This document shows, one piece after another, positions 46,122 to 52,100 of a stretch of 64,000 nucleotides of DNA. How positions within the stretch are numbered: the first letter of the stretch is position 1; every line of letters starts with the position of its first letter. Source of the stretch: an uncultured Paracoccaceae bacterium (GTDB taxonomy: Bacteria > Pseudomonadota > Alphaproteobacteria > Rhodobacterales > Rhodobacteraceae); NCBI GenBank assembly GCA_947499715.1, contig CANMPL010000005.1, forward strand, positions 1-64,000. Direction: 5' to 3'. The notes beneath the pieces were generated by a model that saw only the letters and a list, made by a program, of their open reading frames with translations, was not told where the DNA came from and made no database searches. A program made the translations under genes and the position numbers.

Positions 46122-51231
<5,110 letters not shown>

Positions 51232-51259
51232 CCCAAAGTGGAACATTTTGTTCGCAAAT

Positions 51260-51274
51260 GTTCTTAAAAAGTTC
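51260..51274 (+). promoter_or_regulatory. SOS box (LexA site) upstream of the small membrane protein gene
   Basis: GTTCTTAAAAAGTTC is a perfect GTTC-N7-GTTC, the alphaproteobacterial LexA consensus. A third GTTC at 51250 and a GAAC at 51241 add partial sites. The box lies 66 bp before the start codon at 51341, in the recG downstream gap. Confidence 0.75.
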
Positions 51275-51285
51275 TTTACAGGTCA

Positions 51286-51293
51286 TTAACCAT
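51286..51293 (+). promoter_or_regulatory. CtrA-like half-site TTAACCAT
   Basis: TTAACCAT lies between the SOS box and the short gene, 47 bp before its start codon. The same octamer precedes ctrA. It is only a half-site, so binding by CtrA is a hypothesis. Confidence 0.35.
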
Positions 51294-51340
51294 ATGAGAA
51301 CAAAGGAGCAACAAAACGAACCACAGCAGGAGACGCCCAC

Positions 51341-51463
51341 ATGGCCAAGGAAATCAAAAACGTCATCGTGAATTCACATGACACGCTGATCGCCGACGCT
51401 TTGGGTGCTGTTGCCCTGATCGTCATGTTGTTTGTTGGATTGTCCTTGCCCGGGGCTTTCTGA
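51341..51463 (+). CDS. 40-residue membrane protein, SOS-box associated
   Basis: This short gene, below usual size limits, encodes a hydrophilic N-terminus with Lys/Glu/His (residues 1-17) and one membrane span (about 18-40: DALGAVALIVMLFVGLSLPG). AGGAG at 51329-51333 is well placed before the ATG. It follows recG, and its leader holds a perfect LexA-type box. I recall no name. Its size and context recall SidA of Caulobacter, an SOS-induced membrane protein that blocks division, but no sequence similarity is claimed. A terminator follows at 51600. Confidence 0.72.
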   Translation: MAKEIKNVIVNSHDTLIADALGAVALIVMLFVGLSLPGAF

Positions 51464-51599
51464 CCTGCCTTGCATCCGGATCGGGTGTCGCCATTGCACT
51501 GTCCCACACCGCAATGTCGTCAATGACCTGCCTGTCCAATATCTGACTGGGTTTGCCTGCCCGTGTTCAGATCGCCCGACACACCGGATGCACTTCCTA

Positions 51600-51640
51600 C
51601 CGCCGCCATCCCGTCCCGGATGCGCGGCGGTTTTTTCTTT
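51600..51640 (+). terminator. Terminator downstream of the small membrane protein gene
   Basis: The stem CCGCCGC with GCGGCGG is followed by TTTTTTCTTT. It lies 137 bp past the 40-residue gene and just before the convergent Fe-S scaffold gene. The 51464-51599 stretch between them has no recognisable gene. Confidence 0.8.
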
Positions 51641-51653
51641 CTATAGCAGGGGT

Positions 51654-52100
51654 TTATCCTGCGACCTTTACCTGATCGAATGCGCCCAAGGTCGCCTCAA
51701 ACGCAAGCATGATCGACGCGTGGCGGTTTTTGTAATCGCGTGCGGGCAACAGCACTTCCAGCCCGTCAAAAGGCGCATCAGGGGCCGGGCCATCTGACTT
51801 GAGCATCGCCAAAAGCTGATCGCGTCCTTTTGCAATCACGCTCCGGTCCAGCCCGATAACCTGTTCGCCCACAACAGAGGCCGCAGCCTGACCCAAGGCG
51901 CAGGCCTTCACATCCTGGCCGAACCCGACCACCCGGTCACCATCAAGCATCACATCGACAGTTACCGTTGATCCGCATAGCGGCGACCGCTTTTTGCAGC
52001 TGGCGTCTGGGGCATCCAGCCGTGTGCCATGGGGCAAATCGGCCGCCAACGCCAATATGCGTTGGGAATATAGCTTCATCAGATCGCCATCGTTCGACAC
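51654..52100 (-). CDS. Fe-S cluster assembly scaffold-like protein (NifU/IscU N-terminal type)
   Basis: This 148-residue protein has conserved cysteines in SPLCGSTVTVDV and VKACALGQAAASVVG, arranged as in IscU/SufU scaffolds that hold nascent Fe-S clusters. GTG 52100 (VSNDGDLMKLYSQR) is preferred over ATG 52079 because a GAAAGGG precedes it and family members share the DL-x-KLYS N-terminus. It diverges from hisI by 65 bp. Confidence 0.78.
   Translation of the reverse strand: MSNDGDLMKLYSQRILALAADLPHGTRLDAPDASCKKRSPLCGSTVTVDVMLDGDRVVGFGQDVKACALGQAAASVVGEQVIGLDRSVIAKGRDQLLAMLKSDGPAPDAPFDGLEVLLPARDYKNRHASIMLAFEATLGAFDQVKVAG

Follow-up and report, generated by a model that had tools for sequence, protein, structure and literature searches.

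A LexA-type operator array, a small predicted membrane protein and a structured 3′ untranslated RNA behind recG in Rhodobacteraceae: a candidate locus for a DNA damage checkpoint

Directly behind recG, in a stretch of DNA from an uncultured Paracoccaceae bacterium (family Rhodobacteraceae; assembly GCA_947499715.1, contig CANMPL010000005.1, positions 1 to 64,000 of the forward strand, here called the window), lies a short gene with a dedicated operator array in front of it and a long, folded RNA segment behind it. A first-pass annotation of the window had described a short gene with a good ribosome site behind recG, and had placed it under the SOS repressor LexA on the strength of a GTTC-N7-GTTC box. 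Both gene and box are present, and comparison across the family adds three elements that lie beyond what that annotation saw: an upstream half-site, an inverted operator-like block, and a structured 3′ untranslated region (UTR). We tentatively read the whole as a damage checkpoint with two products, a membrane peptide and a regulatory RNA.

The features follow one another closely, on the plus strand unless otherwise stated. The upstream neighbor recG (49141–51231) is identified by the Pfam domains RecG_wedge, DEAD, Helicase_C and RecG_dom3_C and by synteny. It is followed by an extra GTTC half-site (51250–51253), and then, after 6 nucleotides (nt), by the main LexA-type operator, GTTC-N7-GTTC, at 51260–51274 (GTTCTTAAAAAGTTC). 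Abutting this box is the sequence TTTACA (51275–51280; TTKACA in relatives, logo positions 15–20), a putative −35 element. The promoter spacer contains a TTAACCAT half-site (51286–51293) that is kept in the genus and not across the family, and beyond it a second, inverted operator-like block, GAAC-N7-CAAC, lies on the minus strand at 51298–51312. A ribosome-binding site, AGGAG (51328–51332), precedes an open reading frame (ORF) of 40 residues with an ATG start at 51341–51463; a purine-rich site is found in this place in 121 of 127 related loci. The structured 3′ UTR extends from 51464 to 51636 and carries CUGCCU at 51465, CUGUCCC at 51499, CUGCCUGUCC at 51528 and UGCCUG at 51554. Its fold has a closing stem (51471–51479 paired with 51584–51592) with enclosed branches (51471–51592), and ends in a bulged GC-rich hairpin with a run of U (51599–51636), which from its fold and covariation is a probable intrinsic terminator.

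Conservation of the gene was assessed in a family sample of 198 genomes, one per genus, and in a class sample of 289 genomes. With the protein sequence alone as query, 30 of 61 genomes matched at an expectation value (E) of up to 1, all of the same family. A profile built from 25 members matched 177 of the 198 family genomes at the family threshold of E 0.1 or better, and this is a lower bound, as inspection of a genome without a match (G006) showed the complete locus. About nine tenths of the 177 have a single match and 15 have two. Class-wide, the same profile matched only four of the 289 genomes, each of which belongs to the family. Matches from the genome searches were combined with 80 stretches chosen among the family profile matches, and removal of duplicates left 128 distinct loci; the conservation counts below lean high, since the chosen stretches are mostly better-scoring ones and the 128 loci do not represent all 177 matching genomes. 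One locus with an extended frame of 75 residues (L316) was excluded from counts that give a denominator of 127 or fewer. The C-terminus of recG lies ahead of the small gene in 124 of the 128 loci, the protein is exactly 40 residues long in 105, and all 128 start with ATG under a start-choosing rule that favored this codon. Among the 105 members of 40 residues, D19 and G22 are invariant. The pooled ratio of non-synonymous to synonymous change (pN/pS) is 0.17 within the genus; 144 pairs with protein identity of 70% or more give a pooled value of 0.28. The protein is under purifying selection, so that the checks named by the first-pass annotation (conservation of peptide and box, and a synonymous bias) come out in its favor.

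The same annotation had proposed a single membrane span, and hydropathy bears this out as a prediction: there is one hydrophobic segment, with a 19-residue Kyte–Doolittle mean of up to 2.54 from residue 16. An AlphaFold2 model places helices at residues 2–11 and 13–39, with a mean predicted local distance difference test score (pLDDT) of 88. From the positive N-terminus we infer an N-in topology. A search of Pfam and NCBIfam with the window protein, and of solved structures in the PDB with the profile, gave no match, and assignment to a known protein family or structure was rejected. An origin in a phage or plasmid was likewise rejected, as the window protein, used as the only query, matched no record in a phage collection and a single one in a plasmid collection; the gene behaves like a core gene and not like a mobile toxin. 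That sole plasmid-collection match (NZ_CP039965.1, 332599–332709) lies on a 1.58 Mb replicon of Pseudorhodobacter turbinis.

The box by itself carries no weight, since its bare pattern is found at or below chance: once in the 64,000-nt window against 1.85 expected, and 79 times in the genome of 4.0 Mb, where the reversed pattern occurs 191 times. What gives it significance, despite these counts, is its conservation at the N7 spacing across loci. GTTC-N7-GTTC occurs within 160 nt upstream in 125 of the 128 distinct loci, which were found via the protein, and GTTC-N6-GTTC in the same orientation, representing the third half-site, occurs in 111. As a control for spacing, all other spacings from 2 to 13 in the same orientation score in 0–5 of the 128 loci. 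The box-aligned logo of the 125 loci reads TTTGTTC-N-CAAAT-GTTC-TYAAAAA-GTTC-TTKACA, followed by a variable spacer and then by ATGAGAACAAAGNGGCAACAAA. In this downstream part the inverted block GAAC-N7-SAAC is found in 114 of the 125 loci, with a perfect GAAC-N7-GAAC in five of them and also in two genomes outside this set (G006 and G106). The promoter is thus flanked by LexA-type operators on both sides, the second being imperfect in most loci.

Operators of the same kind are found where they would be expected for LexA. In relatives, GAAC-N7-GAAC lies no more than 420 nt ahead of the family match at 30 of 30 lexA loci and 27 of 31 recA loci. For the 79 boxes in the genome of the window, 20 regions were inspected, picked for A+T-rich spacers; many of these boxes lie inside reading frames. 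In this genome such boxes are found upstream of recA and lexA, and of two genes that we take to be UvrA-like and ImuA-like from recognition of their sequences and not from a search. As the same operator occurs at lexA and recA, and as GTTC-N7-GTTC is given as the Caulobacter LexA consensus in the passages of PMC12700426, the operator type is that of LexA. Separately, a third GAAC half-site in the N7 register was seen in 11 of the 30 lexA promoters (L241, L243–L246, L248, L259, L261, L262, L265 and L266), so that arrays of half-sites are common in the family.

It could be argued that the box is a product of chance and the gene outside SOS control, or that the GTTC array belongs to some other regulator. 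The low bare counts would allow this, as would the absence of the N7 box from three of the 128 loci (L038, L316 and L346), two of which (L038 and L346) are in genomes with lexA, and its retention in seven of eight gene-bearing genomes that lack a LexA match. Set against the 125 conserved boxes, their spacing control and the shared operator at lexA and recA, we regard it as very improbable. SOS control of a predicted single-span membrane peptide, as first claimed, is strongly supported by this conservation. An exact scan of a collection of 84,980 species for the promoter core GTTCTYANNAAGTTCTTTACA returned at least 116 stretches; since the pattern was taken from this promoter, the scan speaks for specificity and is not independent proof. 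Among the matches listed, 80 were checked: the ORF directly follows the core in 78 and recG was detected in 76, the two exceptions for the ORF being a locus that ends at the edge of its stretch (L153) and one with another frame (L132). These 116 loci, having been chosen by promoter, stand outside the box counts, and 101 of them are within a set of 228 loci used below for the terminator.

A second level of control, by the cell-cycle regulator CtrA, had been suggested from the TTAACCAT half-site, together with the presence of chpT, sciP and ctrA in the window. The half-site is indeed there, and the window also encodes a response regulator that resembles CtrA and a member of DUF1153, the SciP family; no chpT-type family was found in the 20 ORFs scanned of the 63 long ones. 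Across relatives the link to CtrA weakens. The TTAACCAT half-site is in the promoter spacer of 7 of the 125 loci, six of which belong to the window's own genus, and it is present in all six genomes compared from that genus. A full TTAA-N7-TTAA lies between box and ATG in one of 125 loci, and within the last 110 nt before ATG in two of 127, so that by site counts CtrA control was set aside as weak. Half-sites are nonetheless enriched in the spacer (TTAACC in 7 and GGTTAA in 19 of 125 loci, against 0.8 expected from shuffled spacers), with strand and place varying, and something may be present in the spacer in a minority of genera. Co-regulation by CtrA that ties DNA damage to the cell cycle is improbable to us: the half-site in all six genus genomes and the spacer enrichment speak for it, and the single full site and the inconstant position and orientation against. 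A weak GTTAA consensus can also be seen in the 125 loci 21–34 nt past the first G of the box, between −35 and −10.

The region behind the stop codon is as distinctive as the promoter. On the plus strand after the stop, CTGCCT occurs 200 times, in 109 of 126 loci, and CTGTCC 181 times, in 104 of 126, where about 16 and 15 are expected; their reverse complements occur once and twice, respectively. Of 228 loci, 214 have a terminator hairpin followed by a U run, and 13 of the remaining 14 offered less than 200 nt of sequence; the median length to the end of the terminator is 172 nt. The window RNA folds with a z-score of −5.3. Over 208 loci, bases of the motifs are unpaired with a frequency of 0.72, against 0.38 for other bases and 0.47 for other pyrimidines; when the rest of the sequence was shuffled around the motifs their unpaired fraction fell from 0.74 to 0.47, with the same direction in 68 of 68 loci. 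A closing stem of at least seven pairs around the branches is formed in 106 of 110 loci compared with 207 of 330 shuffles.

An alignment of six sequences of the genus and one neighbor gave a consensus of 48 pairs with little variation. A covariance model built from these seven (R1) was tested on 99 of 116 loci with an end to the 3′ UTR, the 17 excluded being mostly short, and it matched 97 of the 99 further and training loci at E 0.1; 22 of the 99 R1 matches span less than 120 nt, mainly the terminator, and L034 and L340 each have one hit on the opposite strand. In the wide alignment (A3), 47 of the 48 pairs changed on both sides, with a covariation of 0.315 against 0.095 when shuffled and at most 0.044 when slid, these counts leaning towards the structure because A3 was fitted to it. 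A wider model (R2), scored at E 0.01 with stricter filters, matched 153 of the 198 family genomes, and the element is single-copy in the window genome by covariance-model search. Rfam covariance models gave no match between 50900 and 52100 at E up to 5, and a known RNA family was rejected. The 3′ UTR is a conserved RNA fold with exposed motifs, new to Rfam.

Several known RNAs offer points of comparison. DinR is a small RNA (sRNA) that represses ftsZ and derives from the 3′ end of an mRNA under LexA control (PMC10907235). In the passages of that paper DinR, like the RNA described here, comprises the 3′ part of a LexA-controlled small-protein mRNA with an intrinsic terminator, and it differs in being cut within the coding region and in having an ftsZ-pairing stretch specific to Klebsiella; here the RNA lies outside the ORF and is family-wide, multi-branched and multi-motif. 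As in sRNAs of the DinR type, the 3′ UTR found here is conserved and structured and has an intrinsic terminator at its end (214 of 228 hairpins, and covariation), although a simple consensus scan called no terminator in the window. By position and control DinR is the best comparison for the RNA, as a functional analogy with no claim of homology. In Rhodobacter sphaeroides, four of the eight sRNAs UdsA–UdsH are derived from 3′ UTRs with 3′ ends assigned to terminators, UdsB coming from RSP_1771 and UdsC, which is RpoHII-dependent, from RSP_7527 (passages of PMC9779115 and PMC8625941). They share the host group and, for those four, the 3′ UTR origin, whereas recG and LexA are absent from the main texts of these papers; UdsB and UdsC were dismissed as this RNA as their parent genes differ, as does the regulator of UdsC. 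A likeness of design, and of design only, exists with RNAIII of Staphylococcus aureus, a dual-function RNA that encodes a small membrane-active peptide and has repeated C-rich exposed loops. A small membrane peptide and repeated C-rich exposed loops would be combined in one RNA here too, in another phylum and under another regulator.

How such an RNA might act depends on whether it has targets elsewhere. The main rival for the RNA is a 3′ UTR that works purely in cis, as a stable mRNA end, closed by a terminator, that protects translation or sets its timing, with loops that bind protein and no free sRNA, and we consider this a serious possibility, if somewhat short of probable. In its favor, the element travels with the ORF: of 18 R2 matches away from ORFs already known, 13 have the ORF, and the five with neither box nor ORF are probably terminators alone. 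Furthermore, CTGCCTGTCC, the perfect complement that might mark targets, shows no enrichment in the genome. Against an exclusively cis role, identical motifs that recur unpaired on fast-changing stems, as seen here, resemble trans-acting RNAs or protein decoys. The contexts of the 12 complement sites were judged by eye. One of them (L355, C7:66101–66110), just ahead of a plausible start codon, has GGACAGGCAG, an exact complement of the RNA linker motif, 13 nt before the ATG of a predicted membrane protein of 51 residues, with an aroK-like gene, recognized by eye, apparently upstream on the other strand; it is a possible target. A hok-type fold-back onto the ribosome site was also considered and looked poor, by eye only.

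For the peptide, the closest parallel is SidA, the SOS division inhibitor of Caulobacter crescentus, which acts on FtsW/I/N (PMC4211646). It shares with the protein described here LexA control, a small transmembrane product and an alphaproteobacterial host; the two marks of a SidA-type protein, a single inner-membrane span and SOS control, are found at this locus by hydropathy and model and by operator, respectively, with membrane location being predicted. The comparison is again one of function (size, topology and control), with no homology claimed. For SidA, the passages of PMC4211646 and PMC12700426 mention neither recG synteny nor a double operator nor a structured 3′ UTR.

DinQ and TisB, the SOS-controlled type I toxins of E. 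coli, are also small membrane peptides, and the main rival for the peptide is depolarization in their manner: it would lower membrane potential and bring about damage-induced dormancy, and the structured 3′ UTR would control translation or stability of a dangerous mRNA. The size, the single span and an operator array on both sides suit a product that is harmful when leaky, and DinQ is an SOS single-span peptide with two LexA operators whose over-expression depolarizes the membrane (passages of PMC3567139). The distribution fits less well. Here the gene is widespread, at a fixed site and with no match in the phage collection, unlike type I toxins, which are sporadic in distribution. DinQ and TisB have antisense antitoxins, and a promoter-like site for one was found on neither strand between 51100 and 51750, in a scan for the sigma-70 consensus only that also missed the gene's own promoter. 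That D19 and G22 do not vary points to a protein partner more than to a generic pore. On balance we consider such a toxin unlikely, though to be kept in mind. Another unlikely role, which we would rate lower still, is regulation of some other membrane process after damage, such as DNA uptake, release of gene transfer agents or an envelope protease. Predicted LexA and CtrA targets in Dinoroseobacter shibae do overlap with pilus, flagella and recombination genes (passages of PMC6473078), yet the gene is unnamed in those passages and CtrA sites are not conserved at the loci described here.

The model that we favor, tentatively and stopping just short of calling it probable, is a LexA-repressed checkpoint locus with dual output, in which an SOS transcript gives both a division-slowing peptide and a regulatory RNA. 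LexA would shut the promoter from both sides, through the GTTC array (N6 and N7) that abuts the −35 element and the inverted GAAC-N7-SAAC at or just past the −10 or start; such two-sided occupancy would give tight repression, as befits a product whose leaky expression is costly. DNA damage would remove LexA and a short mRNA would be made, encoding an inner-membrane peptide of 40 residues with a cytoplasmic amphipathic start and one span, at the start of which are D19 and G22. The peptide would slow division, as SidA does, by contact with the septal machinery. The rest of the transcript, a multi-branched RNA of ∼170 nt with several CUGCCU/CUGUCC segments unpaired and a terminator at its end, would be a multi-seed regulatory RNA, which either is released from the mRNA by processing or acts on that mRNA. 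At this locus we infer LexA binding, damage induction and membrane topology; a division block by the peptide and an RNA that acts in trans are proposals by analogy, a division inhibitor being our leading guess for the one and a trans-acting sRNA for the other. A bolder version is possible, and rather doubtful: a family-wide, bifunctional SOS RNA that would halt division through its membrane peptide and, as a new class of multi-loop regulatory RNA with CUGCCU/CUGUCC seeds on covarying stems, would reprogram other mRNAs in a DNA damage checkpoint of RNAIII-like design.

Several observations weigh against the dual-output model. At the promoter, the base before the second GTTC of the window box is A, where 26 of 28 listed recA boxes have T; no recognizable −10 is seen in the window promoter; and the sigma-70 consensus scan of 51100–51750 on both strands returned neither a promoter, the gene's own included, nor a terminator. 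For the peptide, no homology to known division inhibitors emerged from Pfam, NCBIfam and the PDB, the SidA sequence being outside this comparison. For the RNA, the covariation term from RNAalifold is unfavorable at the genus level (+2.11 kcal/mol, with changes on both sides in 7 of 48 pairs), it is the wider alignment, fitted to the model structure, that gives the strong covariation, and CTGCCTGTCC was counted 12 times in the genome where its reversed control was counted 13 times. Lastly, 13 of the 198 family genomes have no lexA match, yet the gene is present in eight of them.

In seven of those eight loci the box is kept. Taken at face value, this would argue against LexA as the sole reason for its conservation. 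The assemblies are poor, with at least 260 contigs in seven of the eight genomes and a completeness of 64% in the other, and lexA may simply have escaped assembly. The one locus without the box, L316 (G186:C118), is in an incomplete genome and appears to represent decay, as its stop codon has gone too and the ORF extends to 75 residues. The gene is absent from 5 of the 13 LexA-negative genomes and from 16 of the 185 LexA-positive ones (Fisher p 0.006). We place no weight on this co-loss, because the assemblies are incomplete, G006 has the locus, and seven of eight keep the box; among the 21 gene-negative genomes, G224 was identified by elimination, and G006 is counted although inspection found the locus.

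A single transcript switched on by damage may thus yield a peptide and a regulatory RNA together. A literature search of titles and abstract openings brought up no gene for the arrest of division after DNA damage in the Roseobacter/Rhodobacter group; the gene described here is a candidate, matched in 177 of the 198 genera sampled, and it comes with its own operator array and a structured RNA outside Rfam. The search named neither gene nor RNA, though the gene may sit under a locus tag in supplementary tables or in work on R. capsulatus lexA. Should the RNA act in trans, this large family would have an RNA arm to its SOS response that the search did not show; otherwise the RNA stands as a new structured element with good support. 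The group includes genetically tractable strains, and the two arms are separable by mutations of the start codon and of the 3′ UTR.

Some further loci carry related promoters. In an alphaproteobacterial metagenome-assembled genome (L132, 2911–2931), the same promoter core stands ahead of a different reading frame, which is possibly another SOS gene sharing this promoter. In Loktanella sp. DSM 29012 (L149, 1238–1258), core and ORF are together with no recG detected in the 700 nt upstream, and the cassette may move as a unit. LexA-type boxes were also seen near genes that are unidentified or apparently not for repair, namely GAACAAATAAAGAAC (L052, C10:334), GAACAAACATAGAAC (L055, C12:41914) and GAACAAACATGGAAC (L039, C5:178961), and these are possible further SOS genes.
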